From assembly GCF_001375595.1 (NCBI RefSeq), contig NZ_CVJQ01000001.1:2321001-2385000 (forward strand): a stretch of DNA of 64,000 bases. Direction: 5' to 3'. Both the position numbers and the translations under genes were made by a program. The first letter of the stretch is position 1. Each line of letters opens with the position of its first letter. This document shows positions 45,032 through 62,354 of this stretch, one piece after another. A model generated the notes under the pieces. That model did not search any database. It was not told where the DNA came from and saw nothing but the letters and a program-made list of their open reading frames with translations. Origin of the DNA: Phenylobacterium immobile (ATCC 35973) (GTDB taxonomy: Bacteria > Pseudomonadota > Alphaproteobacteria > Caulobacterales > Caulobacteraceae).

Positions 45032-45045
45032 TTGATCTCTATCAA
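45032..45045. promoter_or_regulatory. FNR/FixK-type box
   Basis: TTGATCTCTATCAA, a perfect TTGAT-N4-ATCAA palindrome, 93 bases before the start of the universal stress gene at 45138. Confidence 0.85.
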
Positions 45046-45137
45046 CGCTGGCCGGGGCCATTGCGATACGCATGGACAGGGTGCGCGATCCCTTCACGCA
45101 ATGTCGCGCCTGACGAACGGCCAGAGAGGAAGAACCC

Positions 45138-45575
45138 ATGTATCAGCATATTCTTATCTCCACCGATGGTTCGGAGGTCGCCCAGAAAGGCGTCGATCAC
45201 GGGCTCACAATCGCCAAGGCGCTCGGCGCACAGGTGACCATTGTCACCGCGACTGAGTCGCTTCCGGCTTACGGCTTCGATGCCGGTTTCGACGCCATGA
45301 CCTATGCCGACTACGGCGCCGACCAGAAGGAAGCGGCTGAAAAAGTGCTCGCCAGCGCAAAGGAGGCCGCGGATCGCCTCGGAGTTCCGGTCGAAACGGT
45401 CCTCCTTGAGGATGCCGTTCCCGCTGAAGCGATCATCGATACCGCCAAGGCGCGCAACTGCAGCCTGATCGCCATGGCCTCGCACGGCCGGCGCGGGCTC
45501 GGGCGTTTGCTTCTCGGCAGCGTCACCTCCGAAGTTCTCGCGCGCAGTCCCGTTCCAGTGCTCGTCGTTCGCTGA
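45138..45575 (+). CDS. Universal stress protein, single domain
   Basis: 145 residues. UspA fold: MYQHILISTDGSEVAQKGVD, then the ATP-binding motif near the end, MASHGRRGLGRLLLGSVTSE (G-2x-G-9x-G-S type), and SPVPVLVVR. AGAGAGGAAG precedes the ATG. A perfect FNR box upstream implies induction under low oxygen, as known for usp genes of other anaerobic regulons. Immediately downstream are remnants of pta and ackA, which may once have been co-transcribed with it. Confidence 0.93.
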   Translation: MYQHILISTDGSEVAQKGVDHGLTIAKALGAQVTIVTATESLPAYGFDAGFDAMTYADYGADQKEAAEKVLASAKEAADRLGVPVETVLLEDAVPAEAIIDTAKARNCSLIAMASHGRRGLGRLLLGSVTSEVLARSPVPVLVVR

Positions 45576-45645
45576 CCTGTCGATCACCATCGCTTCCAGG
45601 CGGGGATCAATACGCCCCGGACGAGCCCCGCCCACGCGCCGCCAG

Positions 45646-45880
45646 ATGGTCAGCACGAGCATGTCTTCGCCCAGTGAATCCTCCGTCAGAATAGAGCCGC
45701 CTGCCGCCACGGGGACGCAACTTCTGCGCCTCATGCCAATGGCGGAAGCGCACTTGCCGCTGCCGACCGCGGTCGTTCACCCTGTTGACGCGCTGCCCCT
45801 CACGGGCGCGCTCGAGGCGGCCCGGCGCGGGCTTATCGAACCCATTCTGATCGGGCCGCGTCGGAGAGAACGCCGCGGCG
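45646..45880 (+). pseudogene. Phosphate acetyltransferase N-terminal remnant
   Basis: From ATG 45646 or 45661: TGTQLLRLMPMAEAHLPLPT, then AVVHPVDALPLTGALEAARR and GLIEPILIGPR, which match the start of the PTA/PTB catalytic domain. After ILIGPRRRE the frame loses similarity. About 70 residues of a 300-residue domain survive. Together with the ackA remnant this marks a deleted pta-ackA acetate fermentation unit. Confidence 0.7.
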
Positions 45881-45914
45881 ATCCACGTCAGGATTGCGGA
45901 GCGATGCGCCTGGC

Positions 45915-46126
45915 TGGGAGTGCGATTAGACCTCGGCGCCAACGGATCCGGGGCACGTCAAATCAGCCACCCCGACAGCGCCGTTAAAGCCCTGGTGATC
46001 CCAACCAACGAACAATGGCTGATCGCGCGCGGGGCGCCGGGCCTGGCGGGGCAGTGGGCGCCCGAGACGAAAGCGAGGGACGATGTGATCACGCCGCCCT
46101 CGCTCGCCCCAAATCCTTCCCACTGA
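45915..46126 (+). pseudogene. Acetate kinase C-terminal remnant
   Basis: In another frame, GVRLDLGANGSGARQISHPD then SAVKALVIPTNEQWLIARGA correspond to the last 40 residues of acetate kinase (G-x-LD--N--G-----S---S----VIPT-EE--IA). The N-terminal nine-tenths are gone, directly joined to the pta remnant, which points to one deletion between the two genes. Confidence 0.7.
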
Positions 46127-46151
46127 CTGGCCGTCAAAGCTCGACGAAATC

Positions 46152-46460
46152 CTAAGCGAGCTTTTTGCGGGCGACGCCAAGCACCGTGATGAGCGCGGCC
46201 GCCGCTGACAGAGCCGCCGCCGCTGTGGCGATCGGGTGCGCTTTGGCTTCGTCTGCCGCCTGCTGCGCGACGAGCCTGGCTTGGACGGGCGTCCTTTCGA
46301 CGAGGTCGTGCGCGGCTTTTCGCAGAGCCAGGGCCGCGTCAGCGACCGCGTGTTCGGCGTCATCGCTCAGATTGTCCGCCGCGGCGCGGAGGGTCTTGGC
46401 GATCTCTTCGATCGCGTCCTGTACGTCGTCTTTGACTTCGCGTGTAAGCGACTTGGACAT
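46152..46460 (-). CDS. DUF883/ElaB-YqjD-like membrane-anchored protein
   Basis: 102 residues: an amphipathic helical N-terminus (DVQDAIEEIAKTLRAAADNL), Ala/Asp-rich helices, and a C-terminal hydrophobic anchor (IATAAAALSAAAALITVLGV) with a KK end. The layout is that of ElaB/YqjD-type proteins, which in E. coli are stress-induced and bind ribosomes at the membrane. Divergent from the small gene at 46643, with the FNR box at 46580 between them. Confidence 0.75.
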   Translation of the reverse strand: MSKSLTREVKDDVQDAIEEIAKTLRAAADNLSDDAEHAVADAALALRKAAHDLVERTPVQARLVAQQAADEAKAHPIATAAAALSAAAALITVLGVARKKLA

Positions 46461-46579
46461 CGACTTCTCCTCGGATGTGAGAGGTCTTCATCGCCTGCCG
46501 TGGCGGGCTGCGCCTTGATGCCTATCAACTTCGGCCCGCTCAGAATGGAGCGCTCGCCCGAGATCCACGGTTGAGCCTC

Positions 46580-46593
46580 TTGACCAGGGTCAA
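46580..46593. promoter_or_regulatory. FNR/FixK-type box
   Basis: TTGACCAGGGTCAA, a perfect TTGAC-N4-GTCAA palindrome, 50 bases before the start at 46643 and 120 bases from the divergent start at 46460. Confidence 0.82.
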
Positions 46594-46642
46594 GGGCGAA
46601 CGCCGGCGGGCTGGCAATATGGACCTCTCATTGGAGGTTTGC

Positions 46643-46900
46643 ATGTCTATGGATCCCGCCCCCGCACCGTCCCGCCCCAACGGTGGCGAAGGCTTTGTAG
46701 GCGAAGCAACCAGCGTTTGGACCTGCGCCTATGAAGCGTGGTCTGACTATCTTGGGCGCCTGTCGACGGCCGGCAGTCCGCTTGCGCTGTTCGCGGCTGG
46801 TGCGCAGCTGATGAATGACAGTCTCCAGATCAGCGGACGCGCAACGGCGAAGAGTCTTCAGGATGCGGGTTTGGCGAGCCCACTTCTGAACGACGCCTAA
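46643..46900 (+). CDS. Small hypothetical protein, FNR-box controlled
   Basis: 85 residues from ATG 46643 (MSMDPAPAPSRPNGGEGFVG), with GGAGG five bases ahead. The C-terminal half is helical (AYEAWSDYLGRLSTAGSPLA; AGAQLMNDSLQISGRATAKS), somewhat like phasins or small stress proteins, but no family is assigned. The polymerase-X-like gene starts four bases after its stop, so both should share the FNR-type promoter. Confidence 0.65.
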   Translation: MSMDPAPAPSRPNGGEGFVGEATSVWTCAYEAWSDYLGRLSTAGSPLALFAAGAQLMNDSLQISGRATAKSLQDAGLASPLLNDA

Positions 46901-46904
46901 TTCG

Positions 46905-47921
46905 ATGCCGGACACGCCGGTTCCAGGGGTTGCAGCCATCGCGCCGGCGAATGCCGCCGTGGCGTCGCGTTTCCGCCGCTTGGCCGAACTTCTGGAGCTC
47001 GAAGGCGACAACCCTTTCCGGGTACAAGCCTACCGGCGGGCCGCAACCGCGGTCGCAGGCCTTTCGGAAGACGTGCTGCAGATCGTCTCGCAACCCGACG
47101 GTCTGGAGCGCCTCGACGCCCTGCCGGGCGTAGGCGAGGACTTGGCGGCGAAGATCGCCGAAGTTTGCCAAACTGGCCGGCTTGGATTGCTGGACGCCGT
47201 CCAGGCGCGCCTCCCGTCTTCCCTCGTGGCCCTTTCCGCGCTGCCCGGCCTGGGCCCAGACCGCATTCGGCGACTGCACCGGGAACTGGGCGTTCAATCC
47301 TGCGAGGATCTACGAGGCGCCGTCGAGGCTGGCCGGCTGCGCAGTCTTCCGGGCTTTGGGGCCGCGCTGGAGCGAAGGCTAGCCAGGGCTTTATCTCGCG
47401 CCCCGCTTCAACGGACGCCACGGCTTGAGGCCCAACCGGTCGCCGAGGCCCTCCGCCAATCTCTCCTCGCCGTCCCCGGCGTTGAGCGCGCGGACGTTGC
47501 GGGTAGCCTGCGCCGAGGTCGGTCCGATGTGGGCGACATCGATCTGGTCGCCGCGGCGTCGGGGGCGAACGTGACGGTGGCGTTCTCGGCCTTACCTCAA
47601 GTCGAGGAAGTCCTGTCCCGCGGTCCATCTCGCGCCACGGTGCGCCTCATCGGCGGTCTGCAGGCCGACCTGCTCGTCGCGCCGCCGGAAAGCTACGGCG
47701 CCGCCCTGCTCCACTTCACCGGCTCTAAAGCGCACAATATCGCCTTGCGTCGCCTGGCGCGGCGGCAGGGCCTGAAACTGAACGAATGGGGACTCTTCAA
47801 GGCCGAGCAGCGCATTGCTGGCAAGACGGAGGCGGACGTTTATGGCGCGCTCGGATTGACAGAACCGCCACCCTGGCAGCGCGAAACCGGCTCGCTCCCG
47901 CCTCCTCTCCCGACGCCTTGA
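46905..47921 (+). CDS. Family X DNA polymerase core lacking the PHP domain
   Basis: 338 residues. N-terminal 8-kDa-like domain (RFRRLAELLELEGDNPFRVQ; AYRRAATAVAGL), two helix-hairpin-helix motifs (LDALPGVGEDLAAKIAEV; LSALPGLGPDRIRRLHRELG), then the polymerase palm GSLRRGRSDVGDIDLVAAAS with GDIDL and the third carboxylate in GGLQADLLVAP, and HFTGSKAHNIALRRLARRQG. Bacterial PolX is usually about 570 residues with a C-terminal PHP exonuclease; here the protein ends after the polymerase thumb. A repair polymerase without its proofreading module is implied. Confidence 0.88.
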   Translation: MPDTPVPGVAAIAPANAAVASRFRRLAELLELEGDNPFRVQAYRRAATAVAGLSEDVLQIVSQPDGLERLDALPGVGEDLAAKIAEVCQTGRLGLLDAVQARLPSSLVALSALPGLGPDRIRRLHRELGVQSCEDLRGAVEAGRLRSLPGFGAALERRLARALSRAPLQRTPRLEAQPVAEALRQSLLAVPGVERADVAGSLRRGRSDVGDIDLVAAASGANVTVAFSALPQVEEVLSRGPSRATVRLIGGLQADLLVAPPESYGAALLHFTGSKAHNIALRRLARRQGLKLNEWGLFKAEQRIAGKTEADVYGALGLTEPPPWQRETGSLPPPLPTP

Positions 47922-47970
47922 GCATCCATGCCGCTGGTGCAGACGCCGCGAGATTTAGCGCTGCAGAACT

Positions 47971-48423
47971 CTAACAGGTCACCAACTCGGTGTGGCCAAA
48001 GCCCTTCGAGTAGTCGAGCACTGAGATGACGATCGGCTCCACGCGGAAAATCCGGACGTCGTCGGGCTTGGGAAGAGGGAGCTCCGGGCCTGCCTGTTGC
48101 GGATAGCGCGCCAGCAGCAGCGCGAGGGCTTTCTCGCCCTCGGCGCGCTCAGTGACCACCTCGGCCCGCCCGGCCATGGAGAGCCCCTTGATCTCCATCA
48201 CCTGCGGCGTGTCGTGGTCGATCGTGAGTGAGACCCTGTTGTCCCGCGCCAGGTTCGACGCCTTCTGACTGTCGAGGCCGCATAGAAAATAGAGGGCGAG
48301 GTCGTCGTTCGCGTAGCCGACGGTGGTTACCTGCGGCCATCCATCGCCGCGAAGCGTCGCGATGGACATGATCCTATGCTCTTGGATCAACGACAGGATC
48401 TGAGCTCTGATTTCTGGGGTCAT
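47971..48423 (-). CDS. Pyridoxamine 5'-phosphate oxidase-family protein
   Basis: 150 residues of the FMN-binding split-barrel fold: RIMSIATLRGDGWPQVTTVG, then YANDDLALYFLCGLDSQKAS and NRVSLTIDHDTPQVMEIKGL. Such small members usually reduce F420 or FMN-linked substrates or bind heme; the substrate here is not assignable. ATG 48423 overlaps the stop of the upstream lipoprotein frame (ATGA), giving a likely operon with it and the nitroreductase. Confidence 0.87.
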   Translation of the reverse strand: MTPEIRAQILSLIQEHRIMSIATLRGDGWPQVTTVGYANDDLALYFLCGLDSQKASNLARDNRVSLTIDHDTPQVMEIKGLSMAGRAEVVTERAEGEKALALLLARYPQQAGPELPLPKPDDVRIFRVEPIVISVLDYSKGFGHTELVTC

Positions 48424-48620
48424 TGTCCGCCTCCTGGGGCGCGCGGTTGGCTAGGTGCGTTAGGGTCCTGGCCGAGCCCCATGCGGCCAGCGGGTCCCGA
48501 TCCCTGCGCGCCCGCTGCAGCGGAGAGGCTCTGCTCTTGGAACGGCTGTCGCGGTGGAATTGGCCTCTTGCACCCCGCCAGCGGAATGCTCGCCAGCAAA
48601 GCGGCGGCGATCACGCGCAC
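48420..48620 (-). CDS. Small predicted lipoprotein
   Basis: 66 residues if started at GTG 48620: VRVIAAALLASIPLAGCKR is a lipoprotein signal with lipobox LAGC. The mature part is short and Pro/Gly/Gln-rich (PIPPRQPFQEQSLSAAAGAQ). There is no strong ribosome-binding site, but the frame ends in an ATGA overlap with the following gene and starts 45 bases after the nitroreductase stop. Function unknown. Confidence 0.45.
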   Translation of the reverse strand: MRVIAAALLASIPLAGCKRPIPPRQPFQEQSLSAAAGAQGSGPAGRMGLGQDPNAPSQPRAPGGGQ

Positions 48621-48664
48621 CAGGGGAGAAGGCCGCCCGGGGACGCCCGAGGGCTTGTGGGGCG

Positions 48665-49240
48665 TCACGACGCCGCTCTCAGACTCACGAAGCCGATTTC
48701 CGGAGCTTTGCGCGGAGGCGGGTCTCCTGCCACTTTCGGGCGACCGATCAGGATGGGGGCCACGGGGCGAAAGGCCTCGGGAACACCCAATTCGGCTTTG
48801 CCGGCAGGCGAATTCAACCAGGCTTCGGCGAAACCGATCCAGCATGTCCCAAGCCCCCGCGCCCAGGCCGCCAGCATCAAGGTCTGGGCCGCAAGACAGC
48901 AGTCCTTGGCCGCCATCTCGTCGGCCTCGCTCGCGCAGATGATGATCAGCGCGGGAGCGTTGTAGAAGATGTTGAACTCCTGTTGTTCGAGCATGCCGCG
49001 AACTGCAGCGATTTCTGGACGATGCTCTGCCTCAGCCAACATCAGCGCTTTGGCCTCGGCCGAGCAACGCGCGAGCGTGTTGCGCCCCTCGATCACGAAG
49101 AAGCGCCAAGGCTGTCGGTTCATGCCGCTGGGGGCCCAGATCGCATCACCGATCACGGCCTCGATCAGCTGCCGGTCGAGCGGCGCGTCGAGGTAGTCGC
49201 GGACAGCGCGACGGTGATGGATCGCTTCCAAAACATCCAT
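48665..49240 (-). CDS. Nitroreductase-family protein
   Basis: 191 residues from ATG 49240 (MDVLEAIHHRRAVRDYLDAP). FMN-binding features: RRAVRDY near the N-terminus, IWAPSGMNRQPWRFFVIEGR, and in the C-terminal half ARGLGTCWIGFAEAWL with PIAPILIGRPK-like PVAPILIGRPK. NAD(P)H-dependent reduction of quinones or nitro-compounds is the family activity. In a minus-strand group with the lipoprotein and PPOX-like genes. Confidence 0.9.
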   Translation of the reverse strand: MDVLEAIHHRRAVRDYLDAPLDRQLIEAVIGDAIWAPSGMNRQPWRFFVIEGRNTLARCSAEAKALMLAEAEHRPEIAAVRGMLEQQEFNIFYNAPALIIICASEADEMAAKDCCLAAQTLMLAAWARGLGTCWIGFAEAWLNSPAGKAELGVPEAFRPVAPILIGRPKVAGDPPPRKAPEIGFVSLRAAS

Positions 49241-49330
49241 GGCGGCCGCCTCTGATCGGCAGTGAGAAAGCGGGGCGCTCCGCGCCGCGAGCCCGGAGCA
49301 CTCCCTCCAGTCCAACCTCGGGGGAGAGGC

Positions 49331-49801
49331 CTACTTCGCCGACTGGATCTTGATGGACTTGGCGGTGGCGCTGCCGTCTTTCGGCGCAACGACCTTCAGC
49401 ACGCCATTCAACATCGTCGCCTGAATCTTGTCGGCGTCGACGCTGCGCGGCAGCGGGATGGAACGCGAGAAGGCGCCGTAGGAGCGCTCGGACACGCGAA
49501 GATCGCCGTCCTCGGTTTCCTTTTCCGACTTCTTCTCGCCGCTGATCGTCAGAACATCATCATCGACATCGATCTTGATGTCTTCCTGAGCGATGCCGGG
49601 CAGTTCGACCGTCACCTCGATGGCCTTCTTGGTGTCACGCACCTCGATGCGCGGCAGCATCTCGATTTCGGTGAAGGCGTTCCAGCCGCTGGAAAGCTCA
49701 TCGAACAGGCGATTGAACTCGCGCTGCACCGGCAGGAACGCCGAGGTGGCCGAGCGCTGCAGGGCCGGAAGGAATTGCTTGGTGGCGGGGTGGGTGGTCA
49801 T
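49331..49801 (-). CDS. Small heat shock protein Hsp20
   Basis: 156 residues with an alpha-crystallin domain: EIEMLPRIEVRDTKKAIEVT, VELPGIAQEDIKIDVDDDVL, TISGEKKSEKETEDGDLRVS and ERSYGAFSRSIPLPRSVDAD, then the A-x-x-x-NGVLKVVAPK segment. An ATP-independent chaperone holding unfolded proteins. An FNR-like box (49870-49883) lies 69 bases before its start, so low oxygen rather than only heat may drive it. Confidence 0.95.
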   Translation of the reverse strand: MTTHPATKQFLPALQRSATSAFLPVQREFNRLFDELSSGWNAFTEIEMLPRIEVRDTKKAIEVTVELPGIAQEDIKIDVDDDVLTISGEKKSEKETEDGDLRVSERSYGAFSRSIPLPRSVDADKIQATMLNGVLKVVAPKDGSATAKSIKIQSAK

Positions 49802-49869
49802 GGGGGTGCTCCGGGGGCTCTTGGGGAAAACTGACAGCTCCTTTCGAGCCCAGAAATCGCCGCCGATCC

Positions 49870-49883
49870 TTGACCACGCTCAA
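49870..49883. promoter_or_regulatory. FNR/FixK-like box
   Basis: TTGACCACGCTCAA: TTGAC-N4-CTCAA, one change from the palindrome, 69 bases upstream of the Hsp20 start on the minus strand. Confidence 0.65.
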
Positions 49884-49949
49884 GATGGCGACCTCTTTTC
49901 ACCGGATGAACGCCCCCGTCTCGCGCTCCTGAAGCGTGAGACCTTTGGC

Positions 49950-50969
49950 TTAACCTGGAGGCCCTGAAGAAGGGCCGTTCATCGCCAACACTGCCGCGCC
50001 GGCAAAGGCCCCACGGCGAAGATCATCAAGCGCTCGGTTGGCCTCCAGCAGCGGGTAGATCGTGACGTGTGGTCGGACTCCGGCCCTGGCGGCGCGTGGC
50101 AAGTATTCAGTGGCGTCGGCGCGGGTCAGGTTGGCGACTGAGACGAGCCGCCGCTCCTCCCAAAGATCCGCGTAGGGAAAGCTCGGAATGTCACTCATGT
50201 GGATTCCGCCGCACACCACCGTCCCGCCCTTGCGCACCGCGCGCAGAGCCAGCGGCACAAGATCGCCGACCGGGGCGAACAGGATGGCGGCGTCCAGCGG
50301 TTCGGGCGGAGTTTCCTGCGATGCGCCAGCCCAAATGCAACCCAACTCGCGCGCGAGATCCTGCGCCAAGCCGTCTCCACTTTGCGTGAAGGCATAGACA
50401 TCTTGGCCTTCCGCGATCGCCAGCTGGGCCAGGAGGTGCGCCGCCGCGCCAAAGCCATAGAGCCCCAGACGCTGCACCGGCCGGACCTCGCAGGCCTTGC
50501 GCCAGGCGCGGTATCCGATGAGCCCCGCGCAGAGTAACGGTGCGGCCTCCACGTCGCTCAGACCCGCCGGCAGGGGAATGCAGAACCTGGAGTCGGCGAC
50601 CGCCAGTTCGGCGTAGCCGCCATCACGGGTCCAGCCGGTGAACTCGGGACTATCACAGAGGTTCTCAGCGCCTTCGAGGCAGTAGCGGCACCGGCCGCAG
50701 GTCCGGCCAAGCCAAGGCACGCCCACCCGGTCGCCGACGGCCATGCCGGCGACCCCTGGCCCGAGCGCTTCGACGATCCCGACGATTTCATGTCCCGGGA
50801 TGATCACGGCCTTCGCCGGCCGCAGGTCGCCATCAACAACGTGAAGGTCTGTTCGGCAGACGCCGCAGGCGCGCACGCGCAGCAGAACCTCGCCCACGCC
50901 TGGTTCCGGAACCGCGAGGGTCACGGCCTGGAGCCGACCGTCGGTTCCCGTCGTGGTCATAGCTAACAT
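49950..50969 (-). CDS. Zinc-dependent alcohol dehydrogenase
   Basis: 339 residues of the medium-chain dehydrogenase family. Catalytic zinc region RACGVCRTDLHVVDGDLRPA and PGHEIVGIVEALGPGVAGMA; structural zinc cysteines CGRCRYCLEGAENLC; Rossmann region GLYGFGAAAHLLAQLAIAEG. The coenzyme loop GFGAAAH is as in AdhA-type enzymes. It starts 13 bases after the host-attachment-like gene, so it is the third gene of the operon behind the FNR box at 51947. Regeneration of NAD+ under low oxygen is a sensible role (inference). Confidence 0.92.
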   Translation of the reverse strand: MLAMTTTGTDGRLQAVTLAVPEPGVGEVLLRVRACGVCRTDLHVVDGDLRPAKAVIIPGHEIVGIVEALGPGVAGMAVGDRVGVPWLGRTCGRCRYCLEGAENLCDSPEFTGWTRDGGYAELAVADSRFCIPLPAGLSDVEAAPLLCAGLIGYRAWRKACEVRPVQRLGLYGFGAAAHLLAQLAIAEGQDVYAFTQSGDGLAQDLARELGCIWAGASQETPPEPLDAAILFAPVGDLVPLALRAVRKGGTVVCGGIHMSDIPSFPYADLWEERRLVSVANLTRADATEYLPRAARAGVRPHVTIYPLLEANRALDDLRRGAFAGAAVLAMNGPSSGPPG

Positions 50970-50982
50970 GCGGGCGGGGCTC

Positions 50983-51444
50983 TCAATGCATCGACCGGAG
51001 CCCGAAGGATGGTTCGGTCAGCCATTCCCGAAGTTCGTGATCCGGTATCTTCGTCAAATCCTTGCCCAAGGCGCCGGCGACCGGCGCCCGATTGGCGATC
51101 TGGCTACGGAGCGGGCCGGCCAGGCGGCGCGGCGACACTAGGAACACCCCTTCGAAGTCACCTCTCGCGCACAGGTGCGTGGCTCGCTCGGCCACCTCGA
51201 CCATGAAAGCCTCCTTGGCGGCCCGGAGATCATCTTCCCTGCCGAGCTTGTGGCGATCAGGCGACAGCCGCTCGAAGCTACGCCCTGCCTGAGCGCCGCG
51301 TTGTTTGGCGCGCACCTTTAGGAGGGCGTGCGAGTGGTCGAGGGTGTCCACCGTGACGAAGTCTCTCTTGGCTGCGCGACGCTCAACGAAGCGTGCGCGA
51401 CCGCCATCGGTCAGGACGAAGAGAAGCTTGCGCAATCTGGACAT
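50983..51444 (-). CDS. Host-attachment-family protein
   Basis: 153 residues from ATG 51444 (MSRLRKLLFVLTDGGRARFV). It shows the pattern of the host-attachment (AtsE-like, eRF1-related) family: a first strand VLTDGGRARFVE, a charged central region (RAKQRGAQAGRSFERLSPDR; AKEAFMVEVAERATHLCARG), and LVSPRRLAGPLRSQ. Despite the family name, a role in attachment is not shown for most members. It overlaps nothing but follows the DUF2267 gene by 16 bases. Confidence 0.82.
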   Translation of the reverse strand: MSRLRKLLFVLTDGGRARFVERRAAKRDFVTVDTLDHSHALLKVRAKQRGAQAGRSFERLSPDRHKLGREDDLRAAKEAFMVEVAERATHLCARGDFEGVFLVSPRRLAGPLRSQIANRAPVAGALGKDLTKIPDHELREWLTEPSFGLRSMH

Positions 51445-51460
51445 GATGGCCTCGTGAAGC

Positions 51461-51898
51461 TCAGGCCGCGCGATAGGCCGCCGGCCAGGTCGCCCGCAAC
51501 GGGGCAGGCAGGTGTTGAATGATCTTGGTGATCTCGCCGGGATCGAGCCGGTTCGCCATGACGCTGAAGACCGCCTCGACCGCGCCCAGGGCTTCTCGCG
51601 GAAAATGCGGCGGCAATTGATTTGCGACAGCCTCGGCGAAAGCCTTTGGATCGCGCAGGTTCGTGGGGGGAAGAGCCTGCCATCCCTCCAGGAAAACGCC
51701 GCGAAGCAACAACGGCAGTTGAGAGGACAGTCCGAGCACCGCCTCCAGGGGCAGACGGTCGCGCAGAACATGCAGCACAGCTCTAAGCGCCCCATAGGCC
51801 TGCCGCCGGTCACAGGGAGGAAGCTCCGCCTCCAGCCGGCTCAGCCATTGGTTGGCTTCCTGAACCGTGGTGTCGAAGACCTCTAGACCAGTGCTCAT
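51461..51898 (-). CDS. DUF2267 family protein
   Basis: 145 residues: VQEANQWLSRLEAELPPCDR, RQAYGALRAVLHVLRDRLPL and SSQLPLLLRGVFLEGWQALP are characteristic of DUF2267, a helical family with an internal duplication (second half AEAVANQLPPHFPREALGAV; VMANRLDPGEITKIIQHLPA). Function unknown; frequently found in stress and low-oxygen clusters. First gene of the operon with a perfect FNR box 49 bases upstream. Confidence 0.9.
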   Translation of the reverse strand: MSTGLEVFDTTVQEANQWLSRLEAELPPCDRRQAYGALRAVLHVLRDRLPLEAVLGLSSQLPLLLRGVFLEGWQALPPTNLRDPKAFAEAVANQLPPHFPREALGAVEAVFSVMANRLDPGEITKIIQHLPAPLRATWPAAYRAA

Positions 51899-51946
51899 GG
51901 GGGCGCTCCTTCAAAGTGAATTCTGCGCTCGGCGCGCCTGACCGCG

Positions 51947-51960
51947 TTGATGTCGATCAA
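51947..51960. promoter_or_regulatory. FNR/FixK-type box
   Basis: TTGATGTCGATCAA, a perfect palindrome, 49 bases before the DUF2267 start codon on the minus strand. Confidence 0.88.
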
Positions 51961-52358
51961 GTCAGCTCATCGCCTTTTGGCCTCCGTCTCGACAGCGACC
52001 GCCGGCTGGCGCAGCTTGGCCGTCGCCGAACAGTCGGTGTGGTGTTTCTTCGCCGCGGCCGGGAGCATCGTTCTGCTTGGCCACTTCGCCTGGGCTCGCC
52101 GGCGACATCTGGTGGTGGCCGCGGCGTGACGGTCGCGCCGCCCGGTTAAGCGGTGGTGGGTGTTCGAAGGCTGTAGACGGGAAGGAATGCGCGACCGGAC
52201 CTGCTGCACGGGCTACAGATCCGGTCTGATTTCTCACTCGGCCAGATCCTCGTGTCCTGGCTTGAGGCGGCGATTCAATCCCGAGGGACTGAGCCGACTT
52301 CAAGCTGTCTTTCGGCCGCTTGAAGCCTCATCAAAATAGTAAGCCCCGAAGTTGGAAG
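51961..52358. other. Spacer without supported gene
   Basis: About 400 bases between divergent FNR-controlled units. A hydrophobic frame (51950-52129, plus) starts inside the FNR box and is therefore unlikely to be real. No RNA or repeat recognised. Confidence 0.35.
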
Positions 52359-52372
52359 TTGACGTTGGTCAA
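52359..52372. promoter_or_regulatory. FNR/FixK-type box (distal)
   Basis: TTGACGTTGGTCAA, a perfect TTGAC-N4-GTCAA palindrome upstream of the triple-BON gene, 56 bases ahead of a second box. Confidence 0.82.
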
Positions 52373-52414
52373 CTTGCCCACGTTTTCTTTCGACGGAGCA
52401 AAGTTCCTGGGCTG

Positions 52415-52428
52415 TTGACCGACGTCAA
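52415..52428. promoter_or_regulatory. FNR/FixK-type box (proximal)
   Basis: TTGACCGACGTCAA, a perfect TTGAC-N4-GTCAA palindrome 74 bases before the BON gene start. Confidence 0.82.
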
Positions 52429-53795: not shown

Positions 53796-55010
53796 CTAGG
53801 GAGTCGGCCGGGGTCGAACGCGCGCACCGTCCGCGAGCGACTGGTTCGGATGCAGCACGACCTGATCGCCCGGGTTCAGACCCGACCGGACCTCAGCCTG
53901 GTCGCCGTTGTTCTGCCCTATCTCGACGAACCGCAGCCGGGCGCGACCGCCTTCGACCTTGAACACCGCCCACCGCCCCTGACTGCGAAAAAGGGCGGCT
54001 ACCGGTGTGCGAACAACCGTATCCGCCTGCCAAACCGTGACCGCGACCTCGACCCTGTAGCCATGACCGACCGTGCTCCAGGCGGCGGGAGGATCGATCG
54101 GATCGATGATGACATTAACCCGCTGCTCCTCGACTCCGAGCGCCGAGACCTTGAGAAACCCGTAGGGCTCGACCCGTCGAACCCTGCCGCGAAGCGCCGG
54201 CCCCTCCCCCCAGGCCTCGATCCTGGCCGCCGCACCAGCCGGTATCCGCGCCGCGTCGCCAGAGAGCAGTTCGGCCACGACCTCGAGATGGCCGGGATCG
54301 CCGATTTCCATGATCGGCGCGCCCTGGGCGATGACGCTTTCGCTCTGCTGCAATACCCGCAGGACGCGGCCTTCGACCGGCGCGCGGATCGTCACGGCCC
54401 GGGCGGTGACGCTCGCCGCGCGCGGCTCGATCAGACGGGCGCGGGCGGCTTCAAGCGCCGCCTCTTGCAAGGCGACGCCAGCGCGGGCGTTCGCAGTTGC
54501 CGCGCCCGCGGTGCGAACATCCAGGCGGGCGCGGTCCAAGGCGCTCTGCGACGCGACGGACGCCGCAGCCAAGGTCTCGATACGGGCGCCCTCCAGCTGC
54601 GCATGGGCCAGGCGAGCCTCCGCGCCCTCCAACTCCGCCCGGGCCAGGGCAAGGGCCGCTTCGGCCGAGCGGACCCCAGCCTCGACCTCCTGACGGGAAC
54701 GCTCGTCGACAAAAGTCGGTGGAGCGGGTTGGATGGTTGCAATCACCGCCCCCGCCTGCACGCGCTCGCCCGCCCGGTCGCCGATCCGCAGCAGCCGGCC
54801 GGACACCGGCGCGGAGACCACATAGACCTCGCGGGCCCGCGTGCGCGCCTCGTCGCGAACAGCGACGGTGAGAGGACCACGGCTGACTTCGCCCACGTCC
54901 ACCGAGACCGGCTGCGGTCGAAAGGCGAAGAGCAGCAATATCGCGAGCGCCAAGGCGGCGGTCGCCCAGAACACGGTCCGGAAGTTGAGGTGCAACCAGC
55001 TCGTCGTCAC
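53796..55010 (-). CDS. HlyD/RND-type periplasmic adaptor
   Basis: 404 residues from GTG 55010, four bases after the permease stop. One N-terminal membrane anchor (VFWATAALALAILLLFAFRP), lipoyl/barrel-sandwich halves (VSAPVSGRLLRIGDRAGERV; IRAPVEGRVLRVLQQSESVI) around a long alpha-hairpin (VRSAEAALALARAELEGAEA), and a C-terminal beta-barrel. It forms the adaptor of a MacAB-like tripartite exporter with the upstream ABC ATPase and permease. An outer-membrane partner could be the TolC-family gene at 63274. Confidence 0.92.
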   Translation of the reverse strand: MTTSWLHLNFRTVFWATAALALAILLLFAFRPQPVSVDVGEVSRGPLTVAVRDEARTRAREVYVVSAPVSGRLLRIGDRAGERVQAGAVIATIQPAPPTFVDERSRQEVEAGVRSAEAALALARAELEGAEARLAHAQLEGARIETLAAASVASQSALDRARLDVRTAGAATANARAGVALQEAALEAARARLIEPRAASVTARAVTIRAPVEGRVLRVLQQSESVIAQGAPIMEIGDPGHLEVVAELLSGDAARIPAGAAARIEAWGEGPALRGRVRRVEPYGFLKVSALGVEEQRVNVIIDPIDPPAAWSTVGHGYRVEVAVTVWQADTVVRTPVAALFRSQGRWAVFKVEGGRARLRFVEIGQNNGDQAEVRSGLNPGDQVVLHPNQSLADGARVRPRPTP

Positions 55011-55014
55011 AGGC

Positions 55015-57390
55015 CTATTCTCCGGTCTTGAGGGCTGCAGCCAAGTCCAACCGGTCAATCTGGCCGCGCACCATCAGGCTCGAAACCGCGGTGATGGCGA
55101 GCACCAGGGCGGCCGTGACCCCAAAGGTCGCCGGGGAAACTGCGAAAGGGAGCCGAAACAGGTCCGAACTCATCGCACGCGACAGGTACCAGGCGAGCAG
55201 CGCGCCCGCCCCTGCGCCCAGGGGCAGGGCCAGCAGCGTCAGGAAGGCGACTTCGCCGAGCAGGATGTAGGAGACGTCCGCGCGAGAGAACCCGAGCACC
55301 CGTAGAGAGGCCAGTTCCCGCTGTCGTTCGGCGAACGAGATGCGCAGGCTGTTGTAGACGACCCCGATGGCGATCAGGCTCGCAAAGCCGAATAGGATGA
55401 GGATGGATCGGCCGAGGTTTTCGTCGACCATGGCGGCCAGGCGCCTGACCGCCTCCGCCTGCAGCCCCACGCCGGAGATGGCGGGAGCCTCCTTCAGGCG
55501 GGCATAGAGCTCCTCGGTCTCCGCTGCATCGACCGTGAGCCATGCCCCCGAGACCTGGCCGCCTTCGCCCAGCGCCCGGTTCAACTCCTCGATACGCATG
55601 CGCGCGCCGGAACCGACATAACTCGTGGTGACCGCCGAGACGGGGAGAACTAGCAAGGGGCGCCGGCCCGAAGTGACCTGCGCCTCGACGGTGTCGCCCG
55701 GCTCGACGTCGAGCTTGGCGGCCAAGTCTGCCGACAGGACCAGGCCGCCAGGGTGGGGCGACACCGGCCGGTCATCGGCATCGACCATCCTCGACAGGGC
55801 GCCGTCGAGCGGCGCGCCCGTAATCACCGCGCGTTCCTCGCGCGCGCCATTGCGGAGGCGGACGGGGACCACGCGGAAGGGCTCCGCCGTCAACACGCCG
55901 GCCTCGCCAGCGAGCGCGAACAGGGCGGCGCGCGGTCGAGGCTCGACGAAACTCACCGCCACGTCGTACGGGTTTGAGGCGTCGAAACTCGAGTCGATCA
56001 TGACCTTGACGCCGTCCATCATCGACAGGGTGCCAATCAGGAGGGCGCCGGAGGCTACGATCCCGGCCACCGTCAGCGCCGCGCGCCCCGGCCAGCGGAT
56101 GATCTGGCGCAGGATCATGCGCGACTGTTGATCGAGGAACCTGAGCCGGGTGATCCAGGAGCCCACGGCCTTCGAGTAGTCTGGGGGCGCCGAAGGCGTC
56201 ATGGCTTCTGCCGGATTCAGCGCCGCGGCTCGCCGAACCGCGAGGGCGGCGCCGCCCATCACCGTCACCACTGCGACCCCGATGACGATCGCGTAGTCGG
56301 CCGGATTCGCCTCGAACAGCAGGAAGGGAAAGCGGTAGTATCGAATGTAGAGCTCGGCCGTCGCCTGACCGAGCCAGATCCCCGCCGCGCCGCCGATCAA
56401 AACGCCCGCCGCCACGATCGCGGCGACGAGCTTGAGGTAGTGGCCGATGATCTGGGAGTCGCGATAGCCGAACGCCTTCAACAGACCAATGCTGCCCCGC
56501 TGGACCGCGATCAGCCGCGAAACCACGACATTGACCAGGAACGCCGCCACGAGCAGGAAGACCGGGGGCAGGACCCGGCCCATCGTCGCCAACTGGTCGA
56601 TCTCGCTGGACAGGAACGCGTCCGAAATCTGGTCGGCGCGAGCGTAGGCGCCGGGCGCTCCATAGGGCTCCAGAAGCCTATCCAGGCGGGCGATCACCGC
56701 CGGCGACGACGCGCCGCGGGACAGCCGCACGACCGCCTCGTTGAAGGCCTCATCCTGATTGACCGCCTGCGCCAGCGCGCTGCGCCGCATCCACAGCACC
56801 CCGAACATGCGGTCGTCGGGCACGAACTGGCCGGGCCCGATGGCGTAGACATGTTCCGGCGACAGGACGACGCCCACGACCTGGAGCTTTCTTCGACCGC
56901 CTCGCAAGGTCGCCGGGACAGCGTCGCCGATCTGCAGCCCGTGGGCGTCGGCAAAGGCCTGCAGGACCACGGCCTCGTCGCGCCGGCCCAGGTCGGGAAG
57001 GCGACCGCGCAGCAAATGAAGGCGATTGACCGCGGGCTCGCCCACGTCCGGCAGCGACAGAACCTCACCGGTCGCCGGGGCGCTCATGCCTTCCATTGCG
57101 AAAAGCGCCGGCATCCGAATGCGAGTCTCCGCGGCCTGGACGCCGTCGATGGCCATGATGTCGGCGATCAGGCGCTCTGGAGCGCGCACTGTCGGGGCCC
57201 AGATGTCGGCGAACTGATAGCGCTCGTAGTAGGCTTGGCGGGTTCCCTGCAGGGAACTCAGCATCCCCGCCGACAGAAGATGGACCGCGACGCCGCCTGC
57301 GATGACGAAGGCGATCGCGAGGGCCTGGGCCTTCATGCGCCACAGATCACGGACCAGCTTGCGGTCGAGCGAGCCCATCCAGTTCGGCAT
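55015..57390 (-). CDS. FtsX-like ABC transporter permease
   Basis: 791 residues from ATG 57390 (MPNWMGSLDRKLVRDLWRMK); GTG 57399, overlapping the ATPase stop as GTGA, is an equally good start. It has an N-terminal helix, a large periplasmic domain, three helices, a linker, then a second set: two FtsX domains (FLVAAFLVNVVVSRLIAVQR; ILFGFASLIAIGVVYNSLRI). This ten-helix, two-FtsX-domain layout is that of long MacB/LolE-like permeases which work without a separate second subunit gene. Substrate unknown. Confidence 0.92.
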   Translation of the reverse strand: MPNWMGSLDRKLVRDLWRMKAQALAIAFVIAGGVAVHLLSAGMLSSLQGTRQAYYERYQFADIWAPTVRAPERLIADIMAIDGVQAAETRIRMPALFAMEGMSAPATGEVLSLPDVGEPAVNRLHLLRGRLPDLGRRDEAVVLQAFADAHGLQIGDAVPATLRGGRRKLQVVGVVLSPEHVYAIGPGQFVPDDRMFGVLWMRRSALAQAVNQDEAFNEAVVRLSRGASSPAVIARLDRLLEPYGAPGAYARADQISDAFLSSEIDQLATMGRVLPPVFLLVAAFLVNVVVSRLIAVQRGSIGLLKAFGYRDSQIIGHYLKLVAAIVAAGVLIGGAAGIWLGQATAELYIRYYRFPFLLFEANPADYAIVIGVAVVTVMGGAALAVRRAAALNPAEAMTPSAPPDYSKAVGSWITRLRFLDQQSRMILRQIIRWPGRAALTVAGIVASGALLIGTLSMMDGVKVMIDSSFDASNPYDVAVSFVEPRPRAALFALAGEAGVLTAEPFRVVPVRLRNGAREERAVITGAPLDGALSRMVDADDRPVSPHPGGLVLSADLAAKLDVEPGDTVEAQVTSGRRPLLVLPVSAVTTSYVGSGARMRIEELNRALGEGGQVSGAWLTVDAAETEELYARLKEAPAISGVGLQAEAVRRLAAMVDENLGRSILILFGFASLIAIGVVYNSLRISFAERQRELASLRVLGFSRADVSYILLGEVAFLTLLALPLGAGAGALLAWYLSRAMSSDLFRLPFAVSPATFGVTAALVLAITAVSSLMVRGQIDRLDLAAALKTGE

Positions 57391-57395
57391 GGCGC

Positions 57396-58187
57396 TCACC
57401 AGGAAATGTCCCGGGGCTGGCGCCTGTCCCGATTCTCGCGGACCTCGCGCACCTGACCGTCGGCGAACAGCACGACGCGGTCGGCGATCGCCGCGATCGC
57501 GGCATTGTGGGTGATCAGCAGGGTCGTGGCGCGCAGGGTGTCGTTGACGGTCTTCAGCGCCTCCAGCACCCGCACGCCCGTCGCGGAATCCAGGGCGCCT
57601 GTCGGCTCGTCGCAAAGCAATACGGACGGCTGCTTGGCGACGGCGCGCGCGATGGCGACGCGCTGCTGCTCGCCGCCGGACAACTGGGCCGGAAAATGGT
57701 CTAGGCGGTTCTCGAGACCGACCATGGCGAGCGCCGTCTCGGGAGTCAGCGGCGCCTCGGCGATCTCGGTCACCAACGCCACGTTCTCGCGCGCGGTCAG
57801 GCTGGGCATCAGGTTGTAGAATTGGAAGACGAAGCCGACATGGCGACGGCGATACTCCGTGAGGCGCCGCTCATTCGCGTGACTGATGTCGTCGCCCCGG
57901 AACTGGATCTGGCCCGCCGTCGGCGTGTCCAGGCCGCCGAGGATGTTGAGAAACGTCGACTTGCCGCTGCCGGAGGCGCCGAGCACCACCACCATTTCGC
58001 CTTCAGGCAGGTCCAGGTCCACCCCGCGCAAGGCGGGCGCCGCCGCCGGCCCTGAGCCATAGACCTTGGTGACCCCTCGGGCGCGGAAGCACAGACCCGG
58101 CGCTGTCGGGCCCCCGTCGCTCGGCGCTGGGTCCGGTGGGCGGGTTTGACGCCTAGGCGCCCGGGTATGCTTGCTCAGCAGGGGCAT
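57396..58187 (-). CDS. ABC transporter ATP-binding protein (LolD/MacB type)
   Basis: 263 residues: Walker [11 protein letters not shown] near residue 75, Q-loop [20 protein letters not shown], signature [16 protein letters not shown], Walker [16 protein letters not shown] and the H-loop [10 protein letters not shown]. First gene of the exporter operon ATPase-permease-adaptor. An FNR-like box 59 bases upstream places the operon in the same oxygen-responsive set. N-terminal 30 residues are disordered and basic. Confidence 0.95.
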
Positions 58188-58245: not shown

Positions 58246-58259
58246 CTGACTTGGATCAA
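58246..58259. promoter_or_regulatory. FNR/FixK-like box
   Basis: On the minus strand TTGATCCAAGTCAG: TTGAT-N4-GTCAG, one or two changes from the consensus, 59 bases before the ABC ATPase start. Confidence 0.6.
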
Positions 58260-58311
58260 GAGTTGCCGGTTGGAGCTCGTAGGCTTCTCCCGCGAGAGGC
58301 TCGCCCACCGC

Positions 58312-59378: not shown

Positions 59379-59433
59379 CTGAACCACGGTTCTTTTCCTC
59401 TGATGCAAGTTGAGCGGCCGCCGCGGCGCGGCG

Positions 59434-61989
59434 TCATTTCAGGGCGTGTGAATTCCCTCGGCGGCCACGTCGGTCGCTTCGGCTAAATCGGCTTCCGGCG
59501 ATGACGCCCACGCTGGTCCAGCCGCCGCTGAGGGCGCCGGTCGCTAGCGCTGCCAGGAGCAGGTCACGCTGCGGCAGGGCGACATCGAAGAGGGTCGCGA
59601 TGGCAGGGACGGTGAGAACCAAGGTCATCACGACCGCCACGGCGGCCACGATGATCCAATAGGTGCGGCGATGTGGGGCGAATAGCCGGCCCGATGACGC
59701 CGAGTCGGTCAGGGCGAGGACGAGGTTGCCGACCACCAGGGCGAGGAAAGCGGCGCCCCGGGCCGCGTCCTCTGCACCCGGGAAGGCGCTTAGCGCCCAC
59801 CAGTACAGACCAAGGACACCCACCAGCACACCAGCGCCCTGCACGAGCGCCACAAGAATCTGCGTGGGCCCGAACAGCGCCTCCTCGGGACGCCGTGGAG
59901 GGCGCTTCATGGCGTCCGCTTCGCTCGGCTCCGCCTCGAACACCAGCGAGCAGGTCGGATCGATGACGAGTTCGAGCAGCACCACATGCATGGGGAACAG
60001 CAGGGGCGGCAATCCCAGTAGGATGGGACTGAGCGCGAGCCCGGCGATCGGGACGTGGATCGCTGTGATGTAGGTCAGGGCGCGTCGCAGATTGGAGAAG
60101 ATGCGGCGGCCAAGCCGCACGCCGCCGACGATCGAGGCGAAGCTGTCATCCAGCAGGACCAGGTCGGCGGCTTCCCGGGCCACGTCGGTCCCCTTCCTGC
60201 CCATGGCCACGCCGATATGCGCAGCCTCAAGCGCAGGCGCGTCGTTGACGCCATCGCCCGTCATCGCCACCACTTCGCCGTCGGCCTTCAGGGCCTCGAC
60301 GATGCGGAGTTTCTGCTCAGGGGTGATGCGCGCAAAGACCCGAACGCGCTTGAGCCTCTCGCAGAGCACCTCGAAGGAAAGAGACGCGACTTCCGTGCCC
60401 GTCAGCACGCCGGCCTCGGTATCGATTCCGGCTGCGCGGGCGATGGCCAGGGCCGTCGCCGGATGGTCGCCGGTGATCATCATCACCTTGATGCCGGCGC
60501 CCCGCGCCTCGTTCAGCGCCGCTGGGACCTCTGGCCGCAGCGGATCGAGAAATCCCACCAGCCCAGCGAACTCGAAGGCGACGTCCTGAGGGTCGGCGAA
60601 CGCCTGCGTCGGTCGCGTAAACGCAACGCCTAGGACCCGCAGGCCGTCACGCGCATAGGACTCGATGATCCCTTGAAGGCGCGCCACCTCGGCGTCGGGC
60701 AGTCTGCACAGCCGGAAAATGGCTTCCGGCGCGCCCTTCGCGGCGGCGAGGCAAACCTCACCGGGTAATCGCCAGAGCTGGACGACGGCCAGCAGTTCCG
60801 GACGCAGGGGCCAAGTCCGCTCGGGCTCCTGTTCACCCTGCTGCTCTCCCGCGCCGGAGAGGTCCAAGGCCCGGACGGCCTTATCCATTGGGTCGACCGG
60901 GCGGACCGCAGAGGCAAGAGACGCATAGCGAAGAAGGTCGGCCGCTGCGCCGCTGGGCGCGCCGCTGGCGAGCGCGAATTCCCCGGCGGCCGTCCAGACC
61001 CGAGCGACCTGCATCCGGTTTTCGGTGAGGGTTCCGGTCTTGTCGACGCACAGGACCGTTGCGCCGCCGAGGGTCTCGATGACCGCGCTGCGGCGGGCGA
61101 GGACCTGATGATTGGCGAGCCGCCAGGCGCCCAGCGCCAGGAACACCGCCAACACCATCGGAAATTCTTCTGGAATGAGCGATATCGCCACGGTGACGCC
61201 CGCCAGCGCTCCGCCGATCCAATCGTCGCGCAAGAATCCATAGGCCATGGCGACAAGTCCGCAGAAGACGAGCGCCAGCAGACCCAGCAGCGCCACCAGA
61301 CGTCCCGCAGTCTTCTGCAACGGCGTGGGCTCATGGCTGATCGCCGCCAGCGAACTGCCAATGCGTCCCAGGGCCGAGGCCGCTCCGGTGCGGCTCACGG
61401 CCACGACGCCTTGGCCGCGGACCACCAGCGTGCCACCGAACAAGAACGGCCCGGCCTCCGCGCCTGGAGCCGGCTCGACGGTGAGGTCCGGAACGCCGAC
61501 CGCAGGTTGCTTGGTGACGGGCGCCGACTCGCCGGTGAGAGCGGATTCGTCGACGCTGAGCACGTCGCCGGCCATAAGGACGCCATCGGCGGGAAGCCTC
61601 TCCCCCTCACCAATCAACAGGATGTCGTCGGGCACCAGATCGCGGGCCGCAATCCGCGTTTCGACGCCGTTTCGCAGCACCCGCGCATGCGGCTGCGCCA
61701 GCTCGCGCAACGCGGCGAGCGCCCGCTCGCTCCGAGCCTCCTGGAAGATCACCAAGCCGATCGAGGCCGCGGCCCCGGCCACCAGAAACAGGCCCTCGGC
61801 GAGATCGCCAATGAATAGATAGAGCACCGCGGCCCCTATCAGGAGCAGAAACATCGGCTCGCGCAGGGTCTCCATGATGATTTGGCCGAGCGTGCGAGCG
61901 CCGCCGGCGGGCATCTCGTTGGGCCCGACGGCCTCGAAGCGCTGCGCCGCCTCGGCCGTTGTCAATCCGGCGATGCGCTGGATCTGCAT
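59434..61989 (-). CDS. Cation-transporting P-type ATPase
   Basis: 851 residues from ATG 61989 (MQIQRIAGLTTAEAAQRFEA); the longer frame upstream covers the broken stress gene and is spurious. P-type motifs: TGES in ESALTGESAPVT, the phosphorylation site DKTGTLTENRM, GDGVNDAPALEAAHIGVAMG and, in the C-terminal membrane part, HVVLLELVIDPTCSLVFEAE. N-terminal cation_ATPase_N domain; about ten helices. The order resembles P2-type Ca2+/Mg2+ or related pumps rather than heavy-metal P1B pumps (no CPC motif); ion specificity is not clear. Confidence 0.93.
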   Translation of the reverse strand: MQIQRIAGLTTAEAAQRFEAVGPNEMPAGGARTLGQIIMETLREPMFLLLIGAAVLYLFIGDLAEGLFLVAGAAASIGLVIFQEARSERALAALRELAQPHARVLRNGVETRIAARDLVPDDILLIGEGERLPADGVLMAGDVLSVDESALTGESAPVTKQPAVGVPDLTVEPAPGAEAGPFLFGGTLVVRGQGVVAVSRTGAASALGRIGSSLAAISHEPTPLQKTAGRLVALLGLLALVFCGLVAMAYGFLRDDWIGGALAGVTVAISLIPEEFPMVLAVFLALGAWRLANHQVLARRSAVIETLGGATVLCVDKTGTLTENRMQVARVWTAAGEFALASGAPSGAAADLLRYASLASAVRPVDPMDKAVRALDLSGAGEQQGEQEPERTWPLRPELLAVVQLWRLPGEVCLAAAKGAPEAIFRLCRLPDAEVARLQGIIESYARDGLRVLGVAFTRPTQAFADPQDVAFEFAGLVGFLDPLRPEVPAALNEARGAGIKVMMITGDHPATALAIARAAGIDTEAGVLTGTEVASLSFEVLCERLKRVRVFARITPEQKLRIVEALKADGEVVAMTGDGVNDAPALEAAHIGVAMGRKGTDVAREAADLVLLDDSFASIVGGVRLGRRIFSNLRRALTYITAIHVPIAGLALSPILLGLPPLLFPMHVVLLELVIDPTCSLVFEAEPSEADAMKRPPRRPEEALFGPTQILVALVQGAGVLVGVLGLYWWALSAFPGAEDAARGAAFLALVVGNLVLALTDSASSGRLFAPHRRTYWIIVAAVAVVMTLVLTVPAIATLFDVALPQRDLLLAALATGALSGGWTSVGVIAGSRFSRSDRRGRRGNSHALK

Positions 61990-62005
61990 GCCAGAAGACC
62001 TCGAT

Positions 62006-62288
62006 TTAATGAGACAGGAACAGCGGCGTCTTGGGATCGTGCGGCACGTGTTCCGTCGCCCCCCCCGAGAATGAACTCCCGGACGCGTGATCGACCGTAG
62101 GCCCCCATCACCAGCAGATCGGAACCGCATTCGGTCACATAGTCGTCAAGCACCTCGCCGATCCGGCGGCCGGAGGCGATAGCCGCGGTAAACCTGGCCG
62201 CTTGTTCGATCGCCTCGGTTGAGGTCGCCTCGGTTGAGGTCGCCTCGGGATAGCTGTCGATCTGCAGCACTACGTCGCGGATGGGCAT
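62006..62288 (-). pseudogene. Universal stress protein with internal deletion and poly-G frameshift
   Basis: Starts MPIRDVVLQIDSYPEATSTE, the usual beginning of a two-domain (about 280-residue) UspA protein, but jumps directly to SGRRIGEVLDDYVTECGSDL and VMGAYGRSRVREFILGG, the end of the second domain: roughly 180 residues are missing. A run of eight G (62075-62085) then shifts the frame; removing one G restores ATEHVPHDPKTPLFLSH and a TAA at 62006. The N-terminal part also carries a 15-bp tandem duplication (EATST repeated). Clearly non-functional, though its promoter box is preserved. Confidence 0.8.
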
Positions 62289-62340
62289 GACTTCGGTCCT
62301 CTTCGAACATGGACCATCATAGCTCCCGGCGAGGTCTGCT

Positions 62341-62354
62341 TTGACGCAAGTCAG
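62341..62354. promoter_or_regulatory. FNR/FixK-like box
   Basis: TTGACGCAAGTCAG: TTGAC-N4-GTCAG, one change from a perfect palindrome, 53 bases before the broken universal stress gene and its downstream P-type ATPase. Confidence 0.65.

Follow-up and report, generated by a model that had tools for sequence, protein, structure and literature searches.

Box-rich cluster in Phenylobacterium immobile

We analysed a 64,000-nucleotide stretch of the Phenylobacterium immobile (ATCC 35973) genome, which is 3.33 Mb long in 6 contigs. This stretch, called the window below, corresponds to C1:2321001-2385000, and coordinates are window positions unless they are stated to be genome positions. Between positions 45,032 and 62,354 the window carries a series of palindromic FNR/FixK-type boxes, which lie before genes for a universal stress protein (Usp), small proteins, a small heat-shock protein, a DUF2267 protein, a triple-BON-domain protein (BON3), an ABC exporter and an apparent Usp fragment beside a P-type ATPase (Table 1). 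Genes were called by codon score, without a trained gene finder. We define a strict box as TTGAYN4RTCAA, that is, with perfect half-sites TTGAY...RTCAA, and use TTGAN6TCAA as a looser pattern.

The original prediction described eight boxes, at 45032, 46580, 49870, 51947, 52359, 52415, 58246 and 62341, and all of them were found at these positions. Five are perfect (45032, 46580, 51947, 52359 and 52415), as had been said, and the other three, which had been credited with one or two changes, carry one each. The count of eight was too low, as a sixth perfect box at 46515 had been overlooked. The distance from box to start codon, given as 49-93 bases in every case, measures 48-92 bases with the exception of the box at 52359, whose gene starts 129 bases away; this box and the one at 52415 both stand ahead of the triple-BON gene. 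The first 44 kb had been described as free of boxes, which holds for perfect sites but not for one-mismatch sites, four of which lie before 45 kb (15656, 20114, 31097 and 43969). In agreement with the proposed lack of a Crp/Fnr regulator gene, the window contains zero HTH_Crp_2 (PF13545) matches.

Table 1 Boxes and genes of the cluster, in window coordinates.
Feature	Position	Strand	Evidence or remark
FixK-type box TTGATCTCTATCAA	45032..45045	+	92 bases before usp
Universal stress protein, 145 aa	45138..45575	+	Pfam Usp E 8e-35
Small protein, 102 aa, divergent from next unit	46152..46460	-	codon score
FixK-type box TTGATGCCTATCAA, perfect	46515..46528	-	54 bases before 46152-46460
FixK-type box TTGACCAGGGTCAA	46580..46593	+	49 bases before 85-aa gene; CAATAT 21 bases past box
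Small protein, 85 aa	46643..46900	+	
PolX-type DNA polymerase region, 338 aa	46905..47921	+	Pfam DNA_pol_B_thumb E 1e-21, HHH_8 E 1e-18
Pyridoxamine-phosphate-oxidase-like protein	47971..48423	-	Pfam PNPOx_N E 5e-21
Nitroreductase, downstream of hsp20	48665..49315	-	Pfam Nitroreductase E 5e-29
Hsp20 small heat-shock protein	49331..49801	-	Pfam HSP20 E 4e-25
FixK-type box, one change	49870..49883	-	68 bases before hsp20
Zinc alcohol dehydrogenase, last gene of DUF2267 unit	49950..50969	-	NCBIfam TIGR02822 368 bits, cut-off 283.5
Host_attach / baeRF family 12 protein	50983..51813	-	Pfam E 5e-18
DUF2267 protein, first gene of unit	51461..51898	-	Pfam E 1e-26
FixK-type box TTGATCGACATCAA	51947..51960	-	48 bases before DUF2267; CAGAAT 21 bases past box
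Upstream FixK-type box of BON gene	52359..52372	+	129 bases before BON gene
Main FixK-type box of BON gene	52415..52428	+	73 bases before BON gene; 56 bases from upstream box
Triple-BON-domain protein (BON3), 215 aa	52502..53149	+	Pfam BON, 3 stretches, E 1e-44
HlyD-type membrane-fusion protein	53796..55058	-	Pfam HlyD_3 E 9e-17
FtsX/MacB-type permease, 866 aa	55015..57615	-	Pfam FtsX, MacB_PCD
ABC ATPase, first gene of exporter unit	57396..58187	-	Pfam ABC_tran E 3e-36
FixK-type box, one change	58246..58259	-	58 bases before ABC gene; TAGGGT 21 bases past box
Cation-transporting P-type ATPase, gene probably starting inside the ORF	59434..62130	-	Pfam E1-E2_ATPase E 3e-44
108-aa ORF, apparently Usp fragment	61962..62288	-	Pfam Usp, weak and partial: 21.7 bits, below cut-off 24, E 3e-4
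FixK-type box, one change	62341..62354	-	52 bases before Usp fragment; TATGAT 19 bases past box

The boxes exceed chance and concentrate at three loci

With up to two mismatches, the pattern TTGATN4ATCAA occurs 28 times in the window, where 9.4 occurrences are expected, and none of 100 shuffles reaches this count. Genome-wide, strict sites number 14 versus 1 for the reversed pattern, TTGAN6TCAA sites 34 versus 10, and sites with up to one mismatch 222 versus 62; a spacing control, the box pattern with one extra base, occurs in 5 distinct places. Of the 14 strict sites in the genome, six fall within 7,397 bases (window 45032-52428). When 14 points were placed randomly in 200,000 trials, the maximum in 7.4 kb was 4, and 34 points placed randomly in 100,000 trials never gave more than 5 in this span, compared with the seven TTGAN6TCAA sites of the cluster. 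The notion that the palindromes are a chance product of local base composition draws on how common one-mismatch sites are across the genome. It is contradicted by the shuffles, by the excess of strict over reversed sites and by the occurrence of boxes before but not behind BON3 genes at other loci (see below), and we give it next to no weight; for the perfect sites it is ruled out by the shuffles, the reversed patterns and the placement simulations. The boxes are real and go beyond chance, with those at 58246 and 62341, which carry one mismatch, less certain than the others.

The 34 TTGAN6TCAA sites are distributed as seven in the window cluster, six at genome positions 834015-843473, two at a third locus, two single sites and 17 others. 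An equal density elsewhere would speak against the original prediction, and this is not what we found: density is far lower elsewhere, except at two related loci, one at 834-844 kb that holds fixK, fixL and fixJ and one at 2656-2662 kb. The window cluster is thus one of three boxed loci. The third of these (boxes at genome positions 2656896 and 2659816; L030, extending to 2663000) contains a second intact triple-BON gene with boxes nearby, together with an alcohol dehydrogenase, an L,D-transpeptidase, another hsp20 and a small look-alike of the 85-aa protein of the window. An ORF at this locus (L030:6563-6934, minus strand) shares a PLLNDA tail with the 85-aa protein. Another perfect box, at genome position 2405328, lies 69 bases before a decayed BON copy with an in-frame stop (C1:2405328-2405557; L025:1328-1557).

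Among the 17 TTGAN6TCAA sites away from the box-rich loci, 13 lie within or over the start of predicted genes and four are intergenic; one of the latter, at 1209915, has a pyridoxamine-phosphate-oxidase-like gene starting 51 bases away. We also considered cydA as a target and did not retain it, as the strict site at 2397084 is ambiguous, lying inside the start of a cydD-like ORF and 146 bases before cydA.

A -10-like element lies 21 bases past the boxes of chosen promoters

A sigma-70 -10 matrix was scored at each distance past the box and compared with 2,000 shuffles. We hand-chose 13 promoters of the genome in which a box precedes a gene, a set that excludes eight further boxed sites, two of them upstream boxes. 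In these promoters, the best -10-like match lies exactly 21 bases past the box (mean -1.2 versus a median of -6.2), a result reached by 0/2,000 shuffles. The peak at 21 bases puts the box centre at about -40.5. The eight promoters of the window alone also peak at 21, where their best place is reached by 8/2,000 shuffles and their value at 21 by 0/2,000, and all 21 sites of the genome pooled again peak at 21 (0/2,000 shuffles). The best place is likewise 21 when 25 promoters of relatives are scored; the 13 from Pseudomonas, which are closely related and count as few independent cases, peak at 21 and the 12 from alphaproteobacteria at 22. The original prediction took boxes near -41.5 of each start as support; judged by predicted -10 elements, the window's eight and the chosen 13 promoters agree with a box at about -40.5, whereas the eight further boxed sites, taken alone, do not.

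The candidate regulator locus encodes FixK-, FixL- and FixJ-type proteins

The genes fixK, fixL and fixJ lie about 1.5 Mb from the window in the same genome. The 834-844 kb region that contains them also encodes a lipoyl-domain protein, a Rieske oxygenase and a DUF1003 protein, as well as a lone receiver protein, a short-chain dehydrogenase and a lysine-decarboxylase-like (LOG) protein. Two strict boxes belong to the lipoyl-domain protein, and a predicted autoregulatory box, TTGAGCGTGATCAA, at genome position 837560 is one change from strict and about 123 bases before fixK. The box at 841274 is not intergenic, as it overlaps the last part of the lone receiver's coding region. This receiver protein (C1:840877-841311; L026:14878-15312) is found beside fixJ, where a FixT-like regulator might be, and it has no cysteines.

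The closest solved structure to FixK is FixK2 (4i2o, E 6e-44). Its first cysteine is at residue 56, and its recognition helix reads LTIETVSRM (IETVSR), with an E-x-x-S-R pattern that we take to be the FNR-type contact. FixK therefore combines a Crp/Fnr fold, no Fe-S cysteines and an FNR-type recognition helix, and among nine PF13545 matches in the genome it is alone in having the E-x-x-S-R helix; the weaker matches resemble GntR, AsnC, MarR and ArsR proteins. The PAS domain of FixL aligns across all 130 residues with FixL 1dp6 (E 3.5e-55), and HATPase_c and HisKA domains are present. It keeps the histidine and the arginine that serve in FixL as haem ligand and oxygen contact, respectively. FixJ scores 274 bits against NF006900, above the cut-off of 255, and has Response_reg and GerE domains. 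These features support a predicted regulator of the FixK type, beside a haem-PAS FixL, rather than an FNR. The cbb3 oxidase (ccoNOQP) is a usual FixK target and not a defining part of the cascade; its subunit FixO was not found in the genome, in a search that was positive for the Caulobacter control.

We weighed whether the boxes belong to a different Crp/Fnr-type protein (an Fe-S FNR or one of the nitric-oxide type), with FixK as a bystander. Several Crp/Fnr regulators have this box in common, as one survey states for FnrN and FixK (PMC4999443), and boxes persist in genomes without a FixK match. An Fe-S FNR as regulator is rejected, FixK having no cysteine before residue 56. Moreover, the FNR-type helix is confined to FixK among the PF13545 matches, FixK's own locus is boxed, and the same survey reports FixK but no FnrN in the four Caulobacterales surveyed (PMC4999443). 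A different owner of the boxes is therefore improbable, and FixK is the better candidate.

Boxes recur before related genes

The closest named relatives of the BON gene come from metagenome-assembled genomes assigned to Caulobacter (76%) and Phenylobacterium (75%). In 24 of 34 loci, the 200 bases ahead of BON3 contain a box that is perfect or has a single change, or in 23 of 33 when the paralogue from the same genome (L098) is left aside, whereas the 200 bases downstream of BON3 contain no box in any of the 34. A perfect box also lies upstream of DUF2267 in both relatives compared (L033 and L104) and upstream of hsp20 in one of two (L033). The Phenylobacterium locus L033 has relatives of the DUF2267, Host_attach, hsp20, BON3 and exporter genes, with nine TTGAN6TCAA sites in 20.6 kb, and a perfect box lies beyond its ABC-exporter relative. 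L033 and L034 belong to one Phenylobacterium contig, on which some 18 kb separate two BON3 genes. Triple-BON genes with a box ahead of them occur from alpha- to gammaproteobacteria, which suggests a low-oxygen unit that has been reused widely.

Within the genus, full-length BON3 is patchy, occurring in 10 of 59 congeners. A fixK gene lies at most 11 kb from BON3 in six of these ten (G004, G011, G030, G031, G032 and G065); in G022 and G033 it is farther away or on another contig, and none was found in G035 and G061. Strict sites have a median of 11 in the 48 genomes with FixK versus 4.5 in the 12 without (P 6e-4). Completeness confounds this difference, and the control with the reversed pattern likewise gives more sites with FixK (mean 1.6 versus 0.9).

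The two boxes before the window's BON3 gene (52359 and 52415) bear on the mode of control. FNR at yfiD provides an example of tuning by tandem sites, and FixK might similarly repress some units, or the BON3 pair might give an expression peak at intermediate oxygen. The 56-base separation in the window and the 56-59 bases between paired boxes in 9 of 15 Pseudomonas loci (L037, L039-L041, L043, L044 and L048-L050) are in favour of such a role. In other alphaproteobacteria, however, the spacing varies (32, 44 and 93), and the gene-near box of the window promoters fits an activating position, so that we consider repression or an intermediate peak unlikely. A conserved tandem spacing is not retained as a general feature, as it is tight within Pseudomonas only.

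Genes within and around the cluster

For the 102-aa protein (46152..46460), no family was found above cut-off; a relative (53%) is present in L109 near fixK. The 85-aa protein gave no family and no relatives among the loci compared. The Host_attach gene probably starts later than its ORF, because this ORF overlaps the DUF2267 ORF. Another universal stress protein is encoded at 36405-37190, with no box nearby. Just ahead of the cluster (42464-43401), a gene for an Xre/MbcA/ParS-type antitoxin followed by one for a RES-domain protein forms an apparent toxin-antitoxin pair, and a weak phage integrase match (41000-41551; E 1e-3, under cut-off) is perhaps a mobile-element remnant at the cluster edge.

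Discussion

We consider it quite probable that a FixK activator binds the boxes and that the cluster is part of a FixLJ-FixK hypoxia regulon driving a survival island comparable to the lxa locus of Burkholderia cenocepacia. Box density, the -10-like spacing in the window's eight and the chosen 13 promoters, and a fitting regulator outside the window all support the original view of the cluster as an oxygen-responsive survival module. In the proposed mechanism, a fall in oxygen would free the haem-PAS kinase FixL from oxygen inhibition, and FixL would then phosphorylate FixJ, which would turn on fixK. From its TTGAY-N4-RTCAA site, some 40.5 bases ahead of where transcription begins, FixK would recruit RNA polymerase (class II). 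The survival output would comprise the universal stress protein, Hsp20, DUF2267, Host_attach, alcohol dehydrogenase, the triple-BON protein and the ABC exporter, and, less surely, the P-type ATPase. We infer DNA binding and activation by FixK, as well as the survival role, from sequence, and oxygen control would follow from established knowledge of FixL, FixJ and FixK.

Several observations weigh against this interpretation. FixK is below the NCBIfam cut-off for Caulobacter FixK (NF050806, 207 of 300), and FixL, whose best NCBIfam match is FixL, is under the rhizobial FixL cut-off (574 of 850). Taken alone, the eight further boxed sites of the genome (two upstream boxes and those of the receiver, the short-chain dehydrogenase, the decayed BON copy, two at the third locus and 1209915) have no -10 peak, with the value at 21 reached by 422/2,000 shuffles. 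For the promoters of alphaproteobacterial relatives, the value at 21 taken by itself falls short of significance (P 0.08). A box is missing from ten of the 34 BON3 loci. Of the seven loci with relatives of the window's alcohol dehydrogenase, few have a box at the usual position, and such a box accompanies FixK relatives in 2/7 loci and FixJ relatives in 0/5. Across 60 genomes of the genus, including that of P. immobile, FixK and BON3 presence are unassociated (FixK in 9/11 genomes with BON3 versus 39/49 lacking it, Fisher P 1.0), and genomes without a FixK match still have the median of 4.5 strict sites given above. Furthermore, the fixK genes adjacent to BON3 do not form one clade in a tree of 15 sequences made with one method: the P. 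immobile FixK groups with G002, G009 and the BON-adjacent G011 copy, while the G004, G032 and G065 copies lie elsewhere. G030, G031 and G032 each have two fixK copies, and the one close to BON3 is the less similar. A single inherited fixK-BON island is not supported by this tree.

A bolder reading is that the FixK cascade has here largely lost its respiratory output, with no cbb3 oxidase, and serves survival, and that such islands repeatedly pair with a FixK. Its basis is the three boxed stress-gene loci, the box before the decayed BON copy and the various fixK copies beside the BON genes of congeners. Because the fixK tree opposes one inherited island, we lowered our estimate of this possibility and hold it as doubtful. 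The FixK regulon of this FixO-less genome seems to be dominated by survival-type genes. For proteins whose role is unknown, namely BON, DUF2267, Host_attach and the small proteins, the window thus supplies eight candidate target units and a regulator that can be tested.

Related systems place the locus in context. In rhizobia, FixK-dependent stress genes include content of the usp, hsp20, adh and P-type ATPase type. The DosR regulon of mycobacteria has a regulator of a different family and a different binding site. This dormancy regulon is alike in its hypoxia-induced universal stress proteins, on which it has been compared with the lxa locus (PMC6127331).

Caulobacter has a FixLJ-FixK hypoxia pathway, and the pathway of Caulobacter crescentus resembles the one proposed here in its FixL, FixJ, cluster-less FixK and kind of box (PMC3751524, PMC3073932, PMC4999443). 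For four Caulobacterales genomes, a survey gives a FixK regulon of 70 genes in 21 operons, which it describes as confined to redox processes; the targets it names include cco, cyd, hemN, fixLJ and fixK, and it reports fixK autoregulation in Phenylobacterium zucineum among others (PMC4999443). In contrast to this published regulon, most clear sites in P. immobile stand before stress-type genes, FixO was not found and the cydA site is ambiguous. Among the titles listed for one open-access library, none pointed to an island of this kind in Caulobacterales.

The lxa locus of B. cenocepacia contains similar kinds of genes, and a FixK-type regulator has been proposed for it (PMC6127331, PMC3759415). 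The likeness extends to Usps, a heat-shock protein, a BON protein, a cytochrome c and a flavin/nitro-reductase type protein, with the proposed regulator being of the FixK/Anr type (PMC6127331). By Pfam, Usp, Hsp20, BON, cytochrome c and nitroreductase genes occur together here as well, a likeness judged on the kinds of genes. The lxa locus, as described, has six Usps, whereas one whole Usp and a fragment are present here. The P. immobile locus joins two known things, the FixLJ-FixK cascade and an lxa-type locus.

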